A stretch of 64,000 bases of DNA, taken from contig NZ_JAUGQQ010000005.1 in the NCBI RefSeq assembly GCF_030410135.1, positions 62,001 through 126,000 on the forward strand. Reading direction: 5' to 3'. Made by a program: the position numbers and the translations under genes. Each line of letters begins with the position of its first letter. The stretch's first letter is position 1. This DNA is from Aequorivita aurantiaca. Lineage in GTDB: Bacteria; Bacteroidota; Bacteroidia; Flavobacteriales; Flavobacteriaceae. Below are positions 25,426 through 33,975 of the stretch, in pieces. The notes beneath the pieces were generated by a model, which saw nothing but the letters and a program-made list of their open reading frames with translations, ran no database searches and was not told the DNA's origin.

Positions 25426-26562
25426 TTACAAAAAGCCTTTATATTCTCTGTTTTCAGCAGTTTCGGAGAATTCTTCAAGCAATCTTTTGTCTATCGAAAT
25501 GTTATTCGGAATAATTCGCAAACGATATTTGCTTTCACCAATAAAGGTGAAAAGGTCGCGGCGATCGAGTTTTTGGGAATCATCCAATTGAAGAATATCG
25601 TTAATATTTTCAATGATTCGCGTGAGGTAGGTCTGGTTTTTTATTTCGCCACCGAGGTTCACCGGAATGGTTTGCGAATCGCCTTCGGCGTATTTTCTTC
25701 GGATGGCAAATTTCAAGAGGTTTTTATATTGCGTCGTTTTTGAACCGAAATCGATGGTTTGGTCGTAAATATTTTTGGTGGGAATGTTAAGCTTTACCAA
25801 GCTCCAATCTAAAAAGTGAATGGTAATTTCATTTGGTTTTGGCGTGCTGGCTAGCCGAATAACCCACGTTGTTGCCAAAACCAGAAATACCGAAATTAAC
25901 GAAGTTTTCGCGATAATCTTTATGAAATTGTTGCTGAAATCATTTCCGAAGGTCAAGAAAACTTCCGAAATCTGTGAAAGAAAAATTAATACAATAACTA
26001 AAATAGAAATGGCGCCAATAATTTTCAAACCTCTATAAACAAAGGTTCTATAAAAAGAAATTCCCAATAAATAGCATAGAAAAGCAGATAGCAGCAAATC
26101 TGGAATTCCGCTGATCCGTATGTTATTCACAACATTATTCTCTCCCAAAACAAATGGTAAAATGAAGGTGAGAATGGAGGTTAAAACAATAACGGCAATT
26201 ATAGTTTTGATGTTTTTTTTGTTGTGATAAATAAATCCCGGCGCATAATAGAAGTAAAATAGCGCCAGCAATAAAAACATGTTGTTTACAATGGAAAAAA
26301 GATTCACGGCAATACTATAACCCTGAGTCTGTGTGTAATTAAAAACCGTTCCGCCATAAATCCACACTCCCGAAAGCACCCAAACAAACATCGCACAACT
26401 CAGGTAGAGCAAACCTTTGTCAACTCTTTTCTGAGAATCATCCTCTTCCAAAAGTTGGCTAAACCGGTTTCGAATATTATACCAAAGGGCAAGCAAAAAA
26501 ACCCCGCCCAAAAAGGCGATGCAGATATGGCTAAGAATATAGAATTTAGCTACTTCCGTCAT
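25426..26562 (-). CDS. Polytopic membrane protein of unknown function at end of kynurenine operon
   Basis: 378 residues. About seven hydrophobic segments between residues 8 and 270 (for example HICIAFLGGVFLLALWY, FLLLALFYFYYAPGF, VFLVLATTWVIRLA), then a soluble C-terminal domain of about 110 residues rich in charged residues (FGSKTTQYKNLLKFAIRRKYAEGD; RIIENINDILQLDDSQ). The layout (7 TM plus cytosolic tail) resembles membrane sensors or signalling proteins but no kinase, GGDEF or HTH motif is visible. It overlaps the ACMSD gene by 17 bases, so it is probably translated from the same mRNA. I do not recognise a family. Confidence 0.7.
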   Translation of the reverse strand: MTEVAKFYILSHICIAFLGGVFLLALWYNIRNRFSQLLEEDDSQKRVDKGLLYLSCAMFVWVLSGVWIYGGTVFNYTQTQGYSIAVNLFSIVNNMFLLLALFYFYYAPGFIYHNKKNIKTIIAVIVLTSILTFILPFVLGENNVVNNIRISGIPDLLLSAFLCYLLGISFYRTFVYRGLKIIGAISILVIVLIFLSQISEVFLTFGNDFSNNFIKIIAKTSLISVFLVLATTWVIRLASTPKPNEITIHFLDWSLVKLNIPTKNIYDQTIDFGSKTTQYKNLLKFAIRRKYAEGDSQTIPVNLGGEIKNQTYLTRIIENINDILQLDDSQKLDRRDLFTFIGESKYRLRIIPNNISIDKRLLEEFSETAENREYKGFL

Positions 26563-27646
26563 TTTCGCCGAGAATTCTGTTTACCAAATTCTGCTTTATT
26601 TTTTCGTTATCGCCGCACAGCCATTGTATCACATTTTCTTCCCACATTGCATCGGCCTGTTCCGTGTTGACAATTTTTCGTTCCAGTGCCAAATCCAATA
26701 TTTTCCCGGGATAGGAAGATTGCGGCGCGCTTTCCATTTCGCCCAACGGATACGGATCATCCAAACCAACTAGCACTTGTTTGTAGCCCTGATTTCTTAC
26801 TAAAAGTTCGAGGGAACCTGTGTCATGGACCAAGGTATCAAAGAAAATATTTTTGTGGCCAACAGCTTTTCGTGGATGCACTTTTCCTTCAAAAAGGTCC
26901 GGCCGCCCGTCAAAACCTTGGATTCTTCGTCCCAAATTAATCTGTGCCAATTGTCCGCCATGAGCGAAGCAAGTCCTCATTCCCGGATATTTATCTGCGT
27001 AGCCATTCAGAGTTAAGAAATGATAGGCGTCGGCACATTGTGCGAGCATCCAAATAAGATGAAAGCGCCAGGCTGTATTTTGAAGTTTTATAAATTTTTC
27101 CCCATCATAGGGATGTATTTCAACGGCGAGATTATATTTTGACGCCAACTCGAAAATGGGTTCGTTTTCTTCATCAAAAATACATCGCCACGTACCAATC
27201 GTGTCCATATAGTGCGTTGGCAAACACAATAGCTGAAGTCCCAATTCTTCCACGCAGCGTTCCATTTCCCAAAGTGCACCCCGAACAAATCCGGGATGAA
27301 CCACAAATCCACAAGTAAATTTTGAAGGATGGTCGTGCTGGATTTTTGCGTTGAAATCATTTTGAAATCGAAGTGCCTGTTTCATTTCTTCCACACGCAA
27401 ACCATTTCCGTAAAGTTGGGAAAGATTCAAAACTACGGCGTGGTCAATCTTGAAGCGCTCCATCCATTCCAACTTTTCATTTAAAAAGAAACTGGAATCG
27501 GTTACGGGGCGGCTCCAATCTTTTTGAAGCATAAATTTTCGGTCTTTATCAACCCAAAAAATCCCCTTATCTTTCATAAACTGCGGAATTTCCTCTGGAT
27601 AGGGAAGTAGGTGTGAATGGCCATTAATGCGGAGTTTTCGTTTCAT
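26546..27646 (-). CDS. Amidohydrolase, probable 2-amino-3-carboxymuconate-6-semialdehyde decarboxylase (ACMSD)
   Basis: 366 residues. Metal-site motifs of the ACMSD/amidohydrolase_2 group: NGH10-S-H12-LLP at the N-terminus, VEIHPYDG, CFAHGGQLAQ and VGLDDPYPLGE, where the Asp is the usual late ligand. Decarboxylates the ring-cleavage product of 3-hydroxyanthranilate to aminomuconic semialdehyde. The assignment rests on the motifs plus position in a cluster with kynU, kmo, an ALDH and RidA. Separated from the SDR gene by 56 bases that hold a palindromic repeat. Confidence 0.85.
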   Translation of the reverse strand: MKRKLRINGHSHLLPYPEEIPQFMKDKGIFWVDKDRKFMLQKDWSRPVTDSSFFLNEKLEWMERFKIDHAVVLNLSQLYGNGLRVEEMKQALRFQNDFNAKIQHDHPSKFTCGFVVHPGFVRGALWEMERCVEELGLQLLCLPTHYMDTIGTWRCIFDEENEPIFELASKYNLAVEIHPYDGEKFIKLQNTAWRFHLIWMLAQCADAYHFLTLNGYADKYPGMRTCFAHGGQLAQINLGRRIQGFDGRPDLFEGKVHPRKAVGHKNIFFDTLVHDTGSLELLVRNQGYKQVLVGLDDPYPLGEMESAPQSSYPGKILDLALERKIVNTEQADAMWEENVIQWLCGDNEKIKQNLVNRILGENDGSS

Positions 27647-27702: not shown

Positions 27703-28488
27703 TTACAAACTTTTGGTGCGCCCGCCATCCACCGGAAGATTAATTCCGTTAATGTAGCTTGCGGCTTCGGTAGCCAAAAATGCCACTGCATTTGCAATCT
27801 CACCCGGCTGTGCAAAACGTCGCGCGGGAACGATGCTTTTCATAAAATCGCTTGCCTCTTTTTCGGTTTTGTTCATTTTTTTTGCGGCGTTGCCAACGAT
27901 GTCTTCCAACCTGTCAGTAGCTGTAAAACCTGGTAAAACGTTGTTTACGGTTATTCCGAATTGACCTAGTTCATTCGCCAAGGTTTTGCTCCAACTTGCA
28001 ACTGCACCACGTATAGTATTGCTCACGCCAAGGCCGTCAATTGGCTGTTTTACCGAAGTTGAAATGATATTTATAATCCTGCCAAAATCGGCTTCTTTCA
28101 TACCCGGCACAACGGCTTGTACTAAAATTTGATTGCAAATTAAATGCATCGAGAATGCTTTTTCAAATTCATCAGTTTCTGCGGAAAAAATTGGTCCGCC
28201 TTTTGGGCCGCCAGTATTATTCACCAAAATGTGAAATGTTTTATTTGAAGCGGCCAACTCGGATTTCTTTTTTACTTCATCGGGTTTGGTGAAATCGGCT
28301 ACAAAATAGTTGTGTTTTTGTCCTTTATCGTGTGAAAGTTCTATTAAAGTTTCCTTCAATTTCTCTTCATCGCGGGCAACCAAAGTTACAGTTGCACCAA
28401 GTTTTGCCAATTGGATTGCGGTTGCTTTCCCAATGCCGGCGGTGCTTCCGCAGACCATTGCGTTTTTATCTGTTAAGTCTAAATTCAT
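27703..28488 (-). CDS. SDR-family oxidoreductase with degenerate catalytic site
   Basis: 261 residues. Nucleotide loop GSTAGIGKATA (residues about 13-23), NNTGGPKGG in place of the usual NNAG, and the C-terminal PVDGG. The catalytic serine (IISTS) is present, but the YxxxK expected 12-14 residues later reads S-N-T-I-R, so both catalytic Tyr and Lys are missing. This resembles the atypical BKR-like SDR subgroup described as lacking the perfect tetrad. Classical dehydrogenase activity is therefore doubtful. It lies in the kynurenine operon between the ALDH and ACMSD; a role in the pathway is not established by sequence. Confidence 0.85.
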   Translation of the reverse strand: MNLDLTDKNAMVCGSTAGIGKATAIQLAKLGATVTLVARDEEKLKETLIELSHDKGQKHNYFVADFTKPDEVKKKSELAASNKTFHILVNNTGGPKGGPIFSAETDEFEKAFSMHLICNQILVQAVVPGMKEADFGRIINIISTSVKQPIDGLGVSNTIRGAVASWSKTLANELGQFGITVNNVLPGFTATDRLEDIVGNAAKKMNKTEKEASDFMKSIVPARRFAQPGEIANAVAFLATEAASYINGINLPVDGGRTKSL

Positions 28489-28501: not shown

Positions 28502-28590
28502 GAGTATTAAGTATTGAGTATTGAGTTCGATTTCGATTTCGATTTCATTTTCAGTTTCGTTTTCAAATTCCCCCTTTGGGGGTTAGGGGG
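28502..28590. repeat. Simple-sequence tracts between ALDH and SDR genes
   Basis: Degenerate 7-base tandem GAGTATT/AAGTATT (28502-28525), then TTCGAT repeated three times and variants (to about 28560), then CCCCCTTTGGGGG and TAGGGGG (28570-28590) reaching the ALDH stop codon. No gene or terminator-like T run is associated. Confidence 0.7.
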
Positions 28591-30034
28591 CTTCATATTT
28601 TATACAAACATTCTTCGCCTCCGTAAAAAACCGAAGTGCTTCAAATCCGCCTTCGCGGCCTACACCGCTATCTTTCATTCCGCCGAAAGGGGTTCTTAAA
28701 TCGCGGTTCAGCCACGTATTTACCCAAACGATTCCGGCTTCAATTTCTTTTGAAATGCGCATCGTGCGGTTTAAATCGGAAGTCCAAAGTGTTGATGATA
28801 ATCCGTATTTCACTGAATTTGCCATTTTTAAAACTTCTTCTTCGGTTTCAAAAGACATAATTGTAACTACTGGACCGAAAATTTCTTCTTGGTTTACGCG
28901 GCATTGATCGTCAAAAACTTCAATGATTGTTGGCTCTAGATAGTAACCGTTTTCAAAGTTTTTCACAGTAACCCGATTTCCGCCGTAAAGAATTTTTCCC
29001 CCTTCATTTTCGGCGATTTTTATGTACGATTCTACTTTTTTCAAATGCGGTTTTGAAACCAAAGCGCCAATATTTGTTTCGGCATCAAATGGATTTCCAA
29101 TTTTGAGTTGCTTTACTTTTTCAACAAAATCTTTTTTGAATTTTTCGTAAATCGGTTTTTCAACAAAAATCCTACTTCCGCAAAGGCAGATTTGGCCTTG
29201 GTTTGAGAACGAAGAGCGAACGGTTACGTCCAGCATTTTTTCATAATCGCAATCGGCGAAGATGAGGTTTGGGTTTTTTCCGCCCAATTCCAAAGACAAT
29301 TTTTTAAACATTGGTGCGGCGGTGCGGGCAATGTGTTCGCCCGTTTTGGTTCCACCGGTGAAAGAAATCGCTTTAATATTTTTATGTTCCACAATGGCTT
29401 GCCCCGCGGAAGGTCCTGCGCCGTGAACAATGTTCAAAACTCCTTTCGGCAAACCAGCTTCCGTACAGATTTCTCCTAAAAGAAAGGCGGTTAACGGCGT
29501 AATTTCACTGGGCTTTGCAACCACCGTATTTCCCGCGGCGATTGCGGGTGCGATTTTCCACGAGAACAAATACAGCGGAAGATTCCACGGCGAAATACAG
29601 CCCACGACGCCTAGCGGCTGTCGTAGGGTGAAATTCATCGTATTCAAACCCACACTTTCGTGAGCTTCGCTGGCAAATTGTGTGATTGCATTTCCGAAAA
29701 AACGAAAGTTCGCGGACGCTCTCGGAATGTCAACCGCCAAGGCCAAACTTAAAGGTTTGCCGTTATCTTTTGCTTCGGCCTCGGCCAGCTCAACTAATTT
29801 TTCGTCAATTAAATCTGCAATTTTTAGAAGAATTCTGCTGCGTTCGTCAATGGTTGTATTGCTCCATTTCGGAAAAGCATCCTTTGCGGCTTGATATGCA
29901 TTTTCAATATCCTCGTTATTTGAATTTGCAATTTGCGAATAAATTTCGCCATTGGATGGATTGTAATTATCCAACCATTTTTTGGAAAGTGGTTCCACGT
30001 ATTCACCATTTATGTAGTTTAGGATTTTTTGCAT
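28583..30034 (-). CDS. Aldehyde dehydrogenase, probable 2-aminomuconic semialdehyde dehydrogenase
   Basis: 483 residues, full length. NAD-binding and catalytic landmarks: SPWNLPLYLFSWKIAPA, KPSEITPL, FTGGTKTGEHIA, general base in LELGGKNPN, the nucleophile Cys in NQGQICLCGSR, and EEIFGPVVTI. Belongs to the 2-(hydroxy/amino)muconic semialdehyde dehydrogenase branch by context: it would oxidise the ACMSD product to 2-aminomuconate. Its ATG overlaps the stop of the upstream DUF4393 gene by one base (TAATG). Confidence 0.9.
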   Translation of the reverse strand: MQKILNYINGEYVEPLSKKWLDNYNPSNGEIYSQIANSNNEDIENAYQAAKDAFPKWSNTTIDERSRILLKIADLIDEKLVELAEAEAKDNGKPLSLALAVDIPRASANFRFFGNAITQFASEAHESVGLNTMNFTLRQPLGVVGCISPWNLPLYLFSWKIAPAIAAGNTVVAKPSEITPLTAFLLGEICTEAGLPKGVLNIVHGAGPSAGQAIVEHKNIKAISFTGGTKTGEHIARTAAPMFKKLSLELGGKNPNLIFADCDYEKMLDVTVRSSFSNQGQICLCGSRIFVEKPIYEKFKKDFVEKVKQLKIGNPFDAETNIGALVSKPHLKKVESYIKIAENEGGKILYGGNRVTVKNFENGYYLEPTIIEVFDDQCRVNQEEIFGPVVTIMSFETEEEVLKMANSVKYGLSSTLWTSDLNRTMRISKEIEAGIVWVNTWLNRDLRTPFGGMKDSGVGREGGFEALRFFTEAKNVCIKYEAP

Positions 30035-30690
30035 TATTTTATTGAACAGGCTTGTATGAATTCTTCTCCTAATTTTGTTAAGTATATATACTTTTCTTTA
30101 TTAGAAACAGAAGGGCGGTTAAATTCACAACGAGTTAAAATATCTATTCCAGAAATCCATCCAATAATTCCCAATCTTACCATATTAGAAATCTCTGCAT
30201 CAGGAATATTTAAAGATTGAACACCTCTAAAATCATTTTCATAAAGCTTTAATTTTTCTCCAGATAAATCATATTCTTTTACCAAAATTATAAGATGTTT
30301 TAAGAATGTGGCTTCTCTCGTTGAAAGCTGAGATAAAAACATTGGGAATATTGAAATAGTAAAAAGCTTATTTGAATCTATATAATTAATTAATAGATTT
30401 TCCCACATTTTATTAAGAATAGGATCTTCTTCTAAAGAAGCATTTTCAAGTAACGGAAGAAGGATTTTTAAAGGAACCTTTTTAGTAGAAATATTTTTCT
30501 CATTCACATATTTTTCAACATTATTTAAAAGACGAATTTGATTCTTAAAACGCCACACTTTAATATTGTCGCCCATTAATAATCCAACTTCTTCAACTGC
30601 AGGGAATATAAGTTTACCTAAGAAGTCTTTTGCTAAATCAAGACCTTTTTCAATAGTTGAAGATTTAATATTTAGTTCTTTATCACTCAT
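30034..30690 (-). CDS. DUF4393/Abi-alpha family protein inside the kynurenine operon
   Basis: 218 residues, no membrane segment. The sequence opens MSDKELNIKSS and has IFPAVEEVGLLMGDNIKVWRF, LPLLENASLEEDPILNKMWENLL and SNMVRLGIIGWI, the pattern I recall for DUF4393, the family renamed Abi-alpha after lactococcal abortive-infection proteins. The gene is A+T-rich even for this genome and uses Ile/Asn/Lys/Leu heavily, unlike the enzymes around it. It starts 12 bases after ridA in a tandem-repeat tract, and its TAA overlaps the ATG of the ALDH gene. Membership is fairly firm; antiphage function here is unproven and it could be a neutral passenger. Confidence 0.75.
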   Translation of the reverse strand: MSDKELNIKSSTIEKGLDLAKDFLGKLIFPAVEEVGLLMGDNIKVWRFKNQIRLLNNVEKYVNEKNISTKKVPLKILLPLLENASLEEDPILNKMWENLLINYIDSNKLFTISIFPMFLSQLSTREATFLKHLIILVKEYDLSGEKLKLYENDFRGVQSLNIPDAEISNMVRLGIIGWISGIDILTRCEFNRPSVSNKEKYIYLTKLGEEFIQACSIK

Positions 30691-30714
30691 AACTCTGCAC
30701 TCTTAACTCTTAAC
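30691..30714. repeat. AGTTAAG tandem tract at ridA/DUF4393 junction
   Basis: On the minus strand AGTTAAGAGTTAAGAG followed by TGCAGAGTT leads straight into the DUF4393 ATG. The tract supplies the last codons (VKS) and the stop of ridA. Similar short tracts are common beside accessory genes in flavobacteria. Confidence 0.65.
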
Positions 30715-31152
30715 TGGCGAATAGGCCATCGCCTTAATCTCCACCACCAAATACGGATGCGGCAATTGATGCACCGCAACAGTGGTACGCGTTGGTCCCG
30801 TTTCCTTATTGAAATATTCAGCGTACACTTGATTGTAGCCAGCAAAGTCGTTCATATTTACCAAAAAGCTGGTAATGTCCACCACATCTGCCATTGTTGC
30901 GCCTTCGGTGGCTAGGTAATCTTTTATGTTTTCAAGTACGGCGCGGGTCTGTTCTTTTATATCGAAATGCATCGTGCCCATTTCATCAATTTTATTTACG
31001 CCGGCAAAAGTATTGTCGGGCAAACGTGAACTCGTTCCGCTAATAAATATAAAATCGCCAACACGCTTTACGTGCGGATATGCGCCGCGCGGCGTTGCTT
31101 TTCCTTCCACTACATTCCCGCGAAGGCGGGAATCTTTTTCATTATTTTCCAT
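30703..31152 (-). CDS. RidA-family protein, probable 2-aminomuconate deaminase
   Basis: 149 residues from the ATG at 31152; a longer frame to 31185 would overlap kmo by 23 bases. RidA/YjgF core: [28 protein letters not shown], and [22 protein letters not shown] with the conserved Arg and Glu. In kynurenine clusters this family member (NbaF-like) deaminates 2-aminomuconate; assignment here is by context. Odd: residues 5-13 (EKDSRLRGN) are encoded by the same 25-base palindromic repeat found at 27653, so the repeat lengthens the N-terminus. Its last codons come from another repeat. Confidence 0.86.
31115..31139. repeat. Palindromic dispersed repeat, copy 2, inside ridA
   Basis: Identical over 25 bases to 27653-27677 (TTCCCGCGAAGGCGGGAA then TCTTTTT), in the same orientation. 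It lies within the ridA coding region and encodes DSRLRGN in frame. Confidence 0.88.
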
Positions 31153-31162
31153 AGTTTTATTT

Positions 31163-32587
31163 TTACCCAAACGCAACTTCATCATCGTGAAGAATGCCTT
31201 CGGTTTCTTTTTTTACAAGTTCAAGTTTTTCTTTTAGCGACATTTCATCGGTGATTTTTCCGTCGTCCAAAAGATTTAAAATCGCTTTATCCTGTGCGCG
31301 TCCGCGTTTCATTGCTTCAGAATAACTGATAGATTCCTTAAAGGTAACCAAAGCATATTTACTGTAATATTCCTCGGGAAATTCTGCTTCAAAAGCTGTT
31401 TCCAGTTTTCTTTTTCTTTGGAAAATTTCCATTGCGGTGTGCTCTTTCATTTCGTGGAAATTATCCACCGCCAAATCTGCAATTGCGTCCGTATCCTTTT
31501 TCCGAAGCGCTTCGTATTCCTTAAAAAGGTTGTTCCAATTAATGGTTTTTTCGGAACTGTATTTCTCAAGAATTTCATCAAAAACTGCAACGTCTTCAAA
31601 AGAGGCGTTCATTCCCTGCCCGTAAAATGGAACGATTGCATGCGCGGCATCGCCCAATAAAAGTACTTTTCCGAAGGCATTCCAGGGCGAACATTTTACC
31701 GTACCCAAAGGACCAATGGGATTGGTGAAAAATTCTTCAGAAAGGTTTGGGATCATTTCCACCACATCGGGAAATTCTTTGTTAAAATATTCGTGCACCA
31801 TTTCCGGCGAAGTCAAATTCTCGAAGCAATATTCACTGTTTTCATACGGAAGAAATAAAGTAACTGTAAAACTTCCGTCCAAATTGGGCAGCGCAATCAA
31901 CATATCTTCGCCGCGTGGCCAAATATGCAGAGCGTTTTTATAAGTTCGGTAACCGGTTTCGGCATTGGTTTCATTTTCGGGAAACGCGGGAATTTCAAGC
32001 TCTTTATAACCGTGACTCAGCCATTGTTGCGAAAAACTGAAGAGGAATTTATGACTTTCATACATACTTTTTCGAACCGCAGAACCCGCGCCGTCGGTTC
32101 CGAAAATTACATCTGCAGAAATCGTCGTTTCATTTTTTGAGTTGAAGTCCTTAAAAGTTGCCGAAGCATTTTCCAAATCAACTTCTTCACAGGCGTGGTT
32201 GAAAATGATTTTTACGTTTGGCATTTTTTCTGCTTCGTCCAATAACAACATATTCAAACCAGGACGTGAAATAGAATTTATGTATTCGTCCTTTCGACCG
32301 CTGTACGGACTCAAAAAAGTGTTTCCGACCTTGTCGTGAATCATCCGTCCATTCATGGGAATACACAGTTTTTTTGCGGCATCCTCTACGCCCGCCAAAC
32401 GCAAACCGCGCAATCCGCGGTTGCTCAACGCTAAGTTTATGGAACGGCCAGCGTCTTGGGTTACTTTTCGTAAATCGGGACGTTTTTCAACTAAGGTTAC
32501 TTGAAAGCCGCGTTGTGCCATTCTCAATGCAAGCAAACTTCCGCAGAGTCCGGCGCCTATTATTAGTATATTTTGAGTTTTATTCAT
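31163..32587 (-). CDS. kmo: Kynurenine 3-monooxygenase (FAD-dependent)
   Basis: 474 residues. FAD fold at the N-terminus ([19 protein letters not shown] then VEKRPDLRK), then the second FAD motif [21 protein letters not shown], which is characteristic of [14 protein letters not shown] near residue 50 contacts substrate in this family. Hydroxylates L-kynurenine to 3-hydroxykynurenine with NADPH and O2. The C-terminal part, less hydrophobic than the mitochondrial enzyme, probably leaves it soluble or peripheral. Ten bases precede ridA; 88 bases with an inverted repeat separate it from kynU. Confidence 0.95.
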
Positions 32588-32675: not shown

Positions 32676-33938
32676 TTATTTTAAAATTTCCTTTAATTTA
32701 CCCGCAAAGTGAAATACATCCTCAAAACTATTGTACAGTGGGGCGGGAGCAACCCGAATTACATCGGGCTCGCGCCAATCGCTGATTACATCAGCTTCGG
32801 TTAGTTTTGTGTGTAAACTTTTATTCGCATTTTTCACTTGAATTGAGAGTTGGCAGCCACGTTCTTCGGGGCTTCTCGGCGTTATAATTTTTATTGCATC
32901 GTTTTTCATTTCATCTAAAAGGAATTCTAAAAATCCCGTCAGTTTTTCAGATTTTTTCCGAAGGTTTTCAAAGCCCGCATCCGCGAAAGTATCCAAAGAC
33001 GCCCGAATTGCGGCCATTGAAAGAATTGGTGGGTTGCTCAATTGCCAACCTTCGGCGCCCGAAAGGGCATCAAACTCATGCCGCATATTAAAACGCGTTT
33101 TTTTATTGTGGCCCCACCAACCGGAAAACCTTTTTAATTTTTCGTTATGGGCATGGCGTTCATGTACAAAGCAACCGCCCAAACTTCCCGGACCGCTGTT
33201 CAAATATTTATAGGTACACCAAACGGCAAAATCGGCGCCCGTATCGTGCAAATTTGGTTGAATGTTTCCCGCACCGTGTGCTAAATCGAAGCCGACCAGA
33301 CAATTGTATTTATGGCCCAATTCAGTAATTTTTTTCAAAGGAAAAGATTGGCCTGTGTAATAATTGGTACTGCCAATCATCAACAAAGCGATTTCGTTGC
33401 CGTGGGTTTTCATTATTTCCTCTAAATCCTCAAAACGGCAAAGTTCCTCGCCAGTTCTGGGTTTCCATAAAATTAGTCCATCTTTTGGATCAATTCCGTG
33501 AAAATTAAGCTGGCTTTCAACCGCATATTTATCACTTGGAAATGCGTCGCTTTCCACCACAATTTTGTATTTGGTTTTTGTGGGTTGATAAAACGAAACC
33601 ATCATTAAATGAAGATTGGCCGTCAATGTATTCATCACAACCACTTCCGAAGGTTTTGCGCCTACAATTTTAGCCATGTTTTCAGTAAGAAATTCGTGGT
33701 ACGGAAGCCACGGAAATTCAGCAACCGTATGGCCTTCCACGCCCAAGTTTGCCCAATCCTCGAGCACCATTTTTATGTATTCTGAAGTAATTTTTGGTTG
33801 TAATCCGAGGGAATTTCCACAAAGGTAAATTAATGGTTCGCCGACGGAATTTGTAGGCAAGTGAAATTTGTTTCGAAAAGGAGCTAAAGAGTCATTGGCA
33901 TCTTGCTTTTTGGCGTATTCTAAGGAATTTTGAAACAT
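32676..33938 (-). CDS. kynU: Kynureninase
   Basis: 420 residues from the ATG at 33938. A GTG at 33968 is in frame, but it lies inside the -7 promoter box, so the shorter start is preferred. PLP enzyme of fold type I: GNSLGLQPK, GSTNYYTGQSFPL, FDLAHGAGN (PLP-binding Asp) and the Schiff-base lysine in CTYKYLNSGPGSLGG. Cleaves 3-hydroxykynurenine to 3-hydroxyanthranilate and alanine. First gene of the operon that continues through kmo to the membrane protein ending at 25426. Confidence 0.94.
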   Translation of the reverse strand: MFQNSLEYAKKQDANDSLAPFRNKFHLPTNSVGEPLIYLCGNSLGLQPKITSEYIKMVLEDWANLGVEGHTVAEFPWLPYHEFLTENMAKIVGAKPSEVVVMNTLTANLHLMMVSFYQPTKTKYKIVVESDAFPSDKYAVESQLNFHGIDPKDGLILWKPRTGEELCRFEDLEEIMKTHGNEIALLMIGSTNYYTGQSFPLKKITELGHKYNCLVGFDLAHGAGNIQPNLHDTGADFAVWCTYKYLNSGPGSLGGCFVHERHAHNEKLKRFSGWWGHNKKTRFNMRHEFDALSGAEGWQLSNPPILSMAAIRASLDTFADAGFENLRKKSEKLTGFLEFLLDEMKNDAIKIITPRSPEERGCQLSIQVKNANKSLHTKLTEADVISDWREPDVIRVAPAPLYNSFEDVFHFAGKLKEILK

Positions 33939-33967
33939 TGAATGTGGTTGAATTATATGGCTTTTCA

Positions 33968-33975
33968 CAAAAATA
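33968..33975 (-). promoter_or_regulatory. -7 promoter box for the kynurenine operon
   Basis: Minus strand TATTTTTG matches TAnnTTTG, 29 bases upstream of the kynU ATG. It sits in the short gap after the lipoprotein gene ending at 33991. Confidence 0.45.

Follow-up and report, generated by a model that had tools for sequence, protein, structure and literature searches.

The window analysed here, a 64,000-nucleotide stretch of an Aequorivita aurantiaca contig, carries an Abi_alpha gene (PF14337, formerly DUF4393) at 30034..30690 of the minus strand, within a kynurenine operon. The open reading frame occupies exactly these coordinates, starts with ATG and is open and intact over 218 codons. Upstream on the same strand lie the genes for kynureninase (KynU, 32676..33968; TIGR01814, 442.7 bits against a cut-off of 246.4), for a kynurenine 3-monooxygenase named by its best PDB matches (KMO, 31163..32587, overlapping the listed ridA ORF by 23 bases) and for a RidA family protein (ridA, 30703..31185), whose best PDB match is 2-aminomuconate deaminase (6izh, E 1.1e-51). 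Downstream, also on the minus strand, follow an aldehyde dehydrogenase (ALDH, 28583..30034; best PDB match 2-aminomuconate 6-semialdehyde dehydrogenase, 7bzv, E 1.8e-138), a short-chain dehydrogenase (SDR, 27703..28488, by Pfam) and an amidohydrolase (ACMSD, 26546..27646), for which the best PDB matches are 2-amino-3-carboxymuconate-6-semialdehyde decarboxylase (E 1.2e-25). The tight spacing described in a sequence-only reading of this locus is exact at both ends: 12 bases separate the end of ridA (30703) from the Abi_alpha start, and position 30034 is at once the last base of the Abi_alpha TAA and the first base of the ALDH ATG.

ACMS decarboxylase diverts material from quinolinate and NAD, and 2-aminomuconate belongs to the disposal branch, so that Abi_alpha lies between two disposal-branch enzymes rather than on the NAD-making route. 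The earlier placement of the gene in a kynurenine, NAD-precursor-related pathway is thus right about the kynurenine operon but not about NAD, as the flanking RidA and ALDH, going by their best matches, represent the 2-aminomuconate branch, which leads away from it. The genes adjoining Abi_alpha are kynurenine-pathway enzymes, and the prophage location that is usual, though not strictly defining, for published Abi-alpha was not encountered. Pfam revealed no defence gene in the eight neighbouring ORFs, two of which have no match of any kind, while PADLOC was run on the Abi_alpha gene alone. In the operon tree, support near A. aurantiaca (G000) is low; this tree omits one genome that was too short (G013) and 23 gene rows (17 KynU, 5 KMO and 1 ACMSD) in which the extended start gave in-frame stops.

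The family assignment, proposed earlier from the translation, is well supported by the Pfam search: PF14337 matches residues 49-215 with 77.1 bits (cut-off 29; E 2.3e-21), and this gene is the sole PF14337 match found in the A. aurantiaca genome with the Pfam model. An alignment of nine sequences, the protein itself included, contains 49 invariant columns; it represents the nearer relatives rather than the whole PF14337 family. Other resources yielded little. NCBIfam gave no match to the gene and solved structures gave no sequence match to the protein, PHROG 2232 (of unknown function) matches weakly, and three models of the PADLOC candidate family PDC-S47 match weakly as well (best 31.7 bits, with no cut-off shown). 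In viral contigs, 110 stretches fit the peptide patterns, none of them coding for a relative. Compositionally, the gene is A+T-richer than its enzyme neighbours, as had been noticed before, with a G+C of 0.271 and a GC3 of 0.164 versus 0.412-0.443 and 0.389-0.460 for KynU, KMO, RidA, ALDH, SDR and ACMSD. For the ORF that follows downstream (25426-26562), these values are 0.369 and 0.414. Sigma-70-like sites number 20 against 18.1 expected, a count that is uninformative as to promoters.

The AlphaFold model of the protein, built from nine sequences, has a mean pLDDT of 65 and a pTM of 0.62, with residues 1-43 poorly predicted. A conserved helical N-terminal part (approximately residues 1-125) is followed by a C-terminal part (approximately 120-218) that appears winged-helix-like in this middling model. 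Residues 122-217 resemble MarR-type winged helices, MarR chains heading the list of structural matches (best Z 7.0, 68 residues, 1.8 A), but as this Z is below 8, the likeness may reflect merely a common arrangement. Several MarR proteins bind aromatic compounds. The C-terminal part also aligns with 3h35 (Z 6.5, 76 residues, 4.8 A), an entry that the authors of the Abi-alpha study name as well (PMC6356687). Foldseek on the model gave no match below E 0.42, hence nothing at E <= 0.001.

Is Abi_alpha a regular member of this operon? Of 28 sampled genomes of the genus, all but G017 gave a dehydrogenase match, and operon stretches were taken from these 27. RidA and ALDH lie in one stretch in 25 genomes, A. 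aurantiaca included, and these form the basis of the junction counts; G013 and G021 lacked this arrangement, and the G021 junction, on a chimeric-looking contig, was left out. On that contig (L188, G021:C2) the dehydrogenase frame passes after 84 residues into a protein that is MiaB-like by eye, so that the contig is probably chimeric. Abi_alpha occupies the RidA-ALDH junction in 1/25 genomes, unrelated genes are present in five, and in the other 19 the junction is shorter than 300 bases. Hence the gene is not fixed at this place in relatives, and the recent insertion that the sequence-only reading had entertained as an alternative gains from this cluster comparison and from matching empty sites in congeners. 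Neither of the two results that the sequence-only reading had named as refuting arose. Over the genus as a whole, the protein search found Abi_alpha relatives in 3/28 genomes (G000, G003 and, weakly, G018) and the PF14337 model in 3/28 (G000, G003 and G021), with no kynurenine-operon gene in the stretches checked around the G003, G018 and G021 copies.

The unrelated cargo is diverse. G008 carries an esterase (PF00756, 94.2 bits), G010 and G001 a secreted protein that is SHOCT-like by eye (the G010 copy has no Pfam match), and G005 a 219-aa secreted protein without a Pfam match. In G015 (L049, minus strand 10000-8430), an antitoxin-like ORF comes after RidA, then a toxin of the ParE type (PF05016, 25.8 bits, cut-off 23), a stray, divergent second tail of RidA and, before the dehydrogenase, a membrane protein of 252 aa that has no Pfam match. 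The stray tail agrees at 52 of 63 bases with the intact RidA of the same genome, at 57 with that of G023 and at 55 with that of A. aurantiaca, a hint that cargo can travel with flank pieces of another lineage, or that an older RidA tail was kept. At the other five operon junctions, inserts occur in 5/116 cases versus 6/25 at RidA-ALDH (Fisher p 0.0044), although this comparison tallies genomes rather than independent events and, as related genomes share some inserts, the p value overstates independence. These other inserts comprise a membrane protein between KynU and KMO (L048 and L051; the G020 copy is barely above the DUF2306 cut-off), a 197-aa protein between SDR and ACMSD (L035 and L052; the G011 copy has no Pfam match) and a large repeat protein between ALDH and SDR (L039).

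At the ridA end of the gene stands a heptamer-repeat linker, AGTTAAGAGTTAAGAGTGCAGAGTTATGAG (30686..30715, minus strand), in which ridA has its stop codon and Abi_alpha its ATG; the flanking AGTTAAG tract remarked on earlier is real and is built of 7-base units. The 30 bases are identical in A. aurantiaca, G007, G011 and G026, the latter three of which have no Abi_alpha there. Compared with the empty sites of G006, G011, G026 and one G021 contig, which read ...GAGTTATGAGTGA(A/T)-ATGCA..., the inserted stretch runs approximately over 30035..30682 of the minus strand, with ends uncertain by 1-2 bases. At the empty sites the ATG of the linker shares the reading frame of the dehydrogenase, which it would lengthen by three residues; in A. 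aurantiaca this same ATG is the Abi_alpha start codon, so that ridA ends and Abi_alpha begins on codons supplied by the linker. Beside the insert, the RidA and ALDH DNA shows 82-94% identity in a comparison with 12 congeners (of 26 fetched), as much as it does farther out, which indicates that no long foreign flank accompanied the gene. Flank replacement by recombination in A. aurantiaca was rejected, as no divergent tract was found at the insert borders against these 12 congeners.

Could the linker be what remains of a deleted Abi_alpha? The empty allele reads ATG AGT GAA, resembling the Abi_alpha start (Met-Ser-Glu/Asp). We disfavour a deletion scar, however, since a start consisting of heptamers plus ATG-AGY-GAT also opens a 23S_rRNA_IVP gene and matching frames; with the same heptamer start at that gene in A. 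aurantiaca and at frames in G019 and G005, the linker might be a member of this family of repeats. On this comparison of alleles, we prefer an insertion of Abi_alpha into an ancestor that already bore the linker.

Beyond the genus, the kynurenine junction is seldom home to this family. Among 397 genomes of the family Flavobacteriaceae, the protein search found nine with a relative and the PF14337 model 12 (13 matches, 11 over the cut-off), and only the matches of A. aurantiaca and G099 lie at the kynurenine junction, judged from flanks of approximately 1.5 kb or 5 kb. The contig of G340 (L071/L088) also bears an Abi_alpha gene. A pattern-based scan of one genome per species, over 84,980 species, gave nine relatives, of which only the Marinirhabdus one (G099) is in a kynurenine operon, and 395 genomes of the order gave five matches at E <= 1e-20, A. 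aurantiaca included, with no kynurenine-operon gene in the stretches of the other four. For the junction itself, we surveyed the 47 most similar of 171 matching family genomes outside the genus: RidA is upstream in 46 of these best 47 (G111 has no RidA in its stretch), and the gap exceeds 250 bases in 18/46. Esterases recur here: 11 genomes have one with 52-71% identity to the G008 esterase, and G102 has a more remote one. The older occupant of the junction is probably an esterase. PhyH-like proteins occur in G109 and G345 (PF05721 was scanned for G109). The other cargo consists of an IclR-like protein (G122), a TPR-like protein (G131) and secreted proteins (G205 and G345), names without a Pfam scan being given by eye, and of the Abi_alpha of G099.

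This last gene, from Marinirhabdus gelatinilytica DSM 101478 (G099; L070/L080), encodes the closest relative found, a protein of 226 aa with about 55% identity. It lies between the same two genes, a RidA family gene and a dehydrogenase gene, and is likewise AT-rich (GC3 0.198 versus 0.444 and 0.447 for its RidA and ALDH), but the overlap of its stop with the following start is 4 bases instead of one, and the junction has no heptamer linker of the same sequence as 30686..30715. The two proteins are 75% identical over residues 1-125 and 30% over the remainder, and both have one additional residue at the N-terminus and a shorter C-terminal half than other near relatives, the nearest non-operon ones being 248-301 aa long. 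In an unrooted tree of 21 sequences, which includes the L158 frame matched only at E 0.049, the two operon copies split from the other 19 with a branch support of 100. L158 (G099:C12:1357-1953, 189.4 bits) is a second, remote PF14337 gene of the same Marinirhabdus genome, with no kynurenine-operon gene in its stretch. Across the Marinirhabdus genus, RidA is beside the dehydrogenase in 5/5 genomes and Abi_alpha is present in 1/5; the junction holds an esterase in G309 and G422, whereas in G423 and G424 it measures less than about 50 bases.

How did two genera come to carry the gene at the same place? At four-fold sites the two Abi_alpha copies agree in 0.62 of cases versus 0.41 expected (34 sites; excess 0.35), compared with an excess of 0.04-0.23 in four flanking genes, also from few sites; on these few sites, the evidence leans towards a split of the operon copies later than that of the genera. 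Their GC3 of 0.164 and 0.198 argues against very long residence. The N-terminal half of Abi_alpha plus ridA has 76.5% DNA identity between the two operons, and the flanking stretches 71-74%. Lateral movement between related bacteria by way of the RidA-ALDH junction fits these sequences best; independent capture from a common pool, or ancestral presence followed by many losses, is possible. Two independent chance insertions at one junction are disfavoured by the grouping of the operon copies, yet the slot is favoured by cargo generally. As for a gene that was already in the operon of the ancestor of both genera and survives in just two species, the shared position, the single group in the tree and a DNA identity close to that of the flanks all speak for it, but it requires loss in 24/25 genomes of one genus and 4/5 of the other, GC3 has stayed below 0.2 in both copies rather than shifting to host values, four-fold agreement is somewhat higher in Abi_alpha than in the four flanking genes, few sites as these are, and in many other genera the junction contains an esterase or is empty. 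We regard it as very improbable.

A link to defence comes from the protein that gave the family its name, EF2833/Abi-alpha of prophage 6 in Enterococcus faecalis V583. For this gene, PMC6356687 reports that phage Idefix has its efficiency of centre of infection reduced to approximately 40% with EF2833 in the prophage and 10% with the gene on a plasmid, that plaquing falls below 1e-8, and that infected cells lyse about 10 minutes early. Like the gene studied here, EF2833 is a single gene of the PF14337/DUF4393 family; however, it encodes 272 aa, lies in a prophage and has a tested phenotype (PMC6356687), whereas the Aequorivita protein is 218 aa long, is encoded within a metabolic operon and is known from sequence. 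Phage defence by the latter would be a reading by analogy with this one tested member (PMC6356687). The surroundings of other relatives support such a role: of eight other named relatives, three have defence-type neighbours, the Salinimicrobium one near a reverse transcriptase (RT_UG19/DRT, 594.9 bits), the Aquimarina one near an HsdR_N protein and the Flavobacterium gelidilacus one near a C5 DNA methyltransferase. For the remaining five, no clear defence neighbour was found among the ORFs listed; that of Daejeonella is near ORFs that look PIN-toxin-like by eye. The RidA-ALDH slot resembles the defence hotspots described for phages and for core genomes (PMC10250203, PMC9122126) in being a fixed site with changing cargo including defence genes, but differs in holding mostly one gene at a time and in lying within an operon. 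Its defence-like cargo consists of Abi_alpha in two genomes and one toxin-antitoxin pair, most of the cargo being of other kinds. We found no literature that joins kynurenine, abortive infection and operon, and none on insertion hotspots in Bacteroidetes operons.

The gene thus combines a PF14337 match and sporadic presence with matching empty sites, native flanks up to the junction and other cargo at that junction in relatives. Belonging to the family of a virus-triggered lysis gene and standing at a boundary with varied single genes in relatives, it looks like passenger defence cargo and not like a part of the pathway. We consider it rather probable that this is an Abi-alpha abortive-infection gene, horizontally acquired and settled, as cargo of one gene, where the kynurenine/2-aminomuconate operon has a permissive boundary, and probably a recent arrival there. 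The operon promoter would drive its transcription and the ATG supplied by the linker would start its translation, so that the host could make the protein without a promoter of the gene's own while the downstream dehydrogenase would keep its start. Upon infection by a susceptible phage, the cell might lyse or die early, before many virions form, as with EF2833 in E. faecalis. Our guess would be that the variable winged-helix-like C-terminal part recognises the trigger and that the conserved helical N-terminal part executes the response. Several observations count against this reading of the gene as defence cargo: the one characterised member found in print is remote and from a Gram-positive prophage, whereas here enzymes adjoin and no prophage or defence gene is among them; five of the eight other named relatives show no clear defence neighbour in the ORFs inspected; the shared junction and the grouping of the two operon copies would be rare under pure chance insertion; the PADLOC and PHROG matches are weak; and the operon copies, at 218 and 226 aa, are shorter than the nearest non-operon relatives (248-301 aa), so that the protein could have lost the activity.

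Two other roles deserve consideration. A mobile gene may simply have landed in a tolerant gap as a harmless or decaying passenger without a useful role, in keeping with its sporadic, AT-rich occurrence in one species per genus and with slot cargo that includes genes without a known family. Yet the frame is open and intact, and residues 1-125 are 75% identical across genera although four-fold sites there keep only approximately one third of identity beyond composition (26 sites), which suggests purifying selection on the N-terminal part and leaves a useless passenger fairly unlikely. Alternatively, the protein could be tied to the pathway, either as a winged-helix sensor of a kynurenine-pathway compound or as a defence protein gated by pathway flux. 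Such a tie would account for the closest relative at the same junction in Marinirhabdus and for the tight spacing at both gene ends, and the MarR-like C-terminal part would suit a ligand of this kind. It fits poorly with a junction that has no Abi_alpha in 24/25 genomes of the genus and in 4/5 of the Marinirhabdus genus despite an adjacent RidA-ALDH pair in all five, with the unrelated genes in the slot of other genomes, and with a would-be sensing part that is 30% identical between the operon copies and whose Z under 8 may be just a common arrangement. We consider it quite improbable; the earlier idea of sensing or exploiting pathway flux finds no support, since the junction holds unrelated genes in relatives, the other Abi_alpha genes with checked flanks lie elsewhere and the enzymes lead away from NAD, and solely the Marinirhabdus relative at the same junction keeps a metabolic link weakly alive.

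More speculatively, and to our minds distinctly unlikely, a sub-lineage of Abi_alpha might have specialised to the kynurenine-operon boundary and moved between genera by recombination through the conserved flanking enzyme genes, with tryptophan breakdown setting the dosage of defence, the boundary serving as a natural site for exchanging single genes, among them genes of defence and of toxin-antitoxin systems, and the heptamer repeat giving the start codon. Searches for defence genes usually target islands and prophages, and those based on islands would miss single cargo of a defence family in a metabolic operon. Occupied and matching empty slots offer a clean natural comparison for the function and control of operon-embedded defence genes, and operon membership should not be equated with pathway function.

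Finally, the heptamer repeat is not confined to this junction. GAGTTATGAGTGA, with at most two mismatches, occurs six times in the 64-kb window versus 0.71 expected, and arrays of 7-base units are also found elsewhere in the A. aurantiaca genome. The 11-base word GAGTTATGAGT has 27 genomic copies, many of them spaced by 7 bases, but with 17 copies of the backwards control this count says little by itself; GAGTTATGAGYGA occurs 19 times in the 28 genomes of the genus (backwards control nine). The 23S_rRNA_IVP gene of A. aurantiaca (PF05635, 78.7 bits; L173:2037-2375, plus strand, G000:C11) lies, by eye, between atpA and atpG; its ATG is inside the GAGTTATGAG heptamer repeat and inverted heptamers stand at its 3' end, so that it looks like a small mobile gene bounded by repeats. 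A search of the literature on IVP elements returned nothing relevant. Matching frames at the same motif have 112 codons in G019 and 70 in G005. In several congeners the empty junctions (L017, L018, L023 and L028) contain a hairpin of the form ACCTAACAGGTTTT-AAAACCTGTTAGGT.
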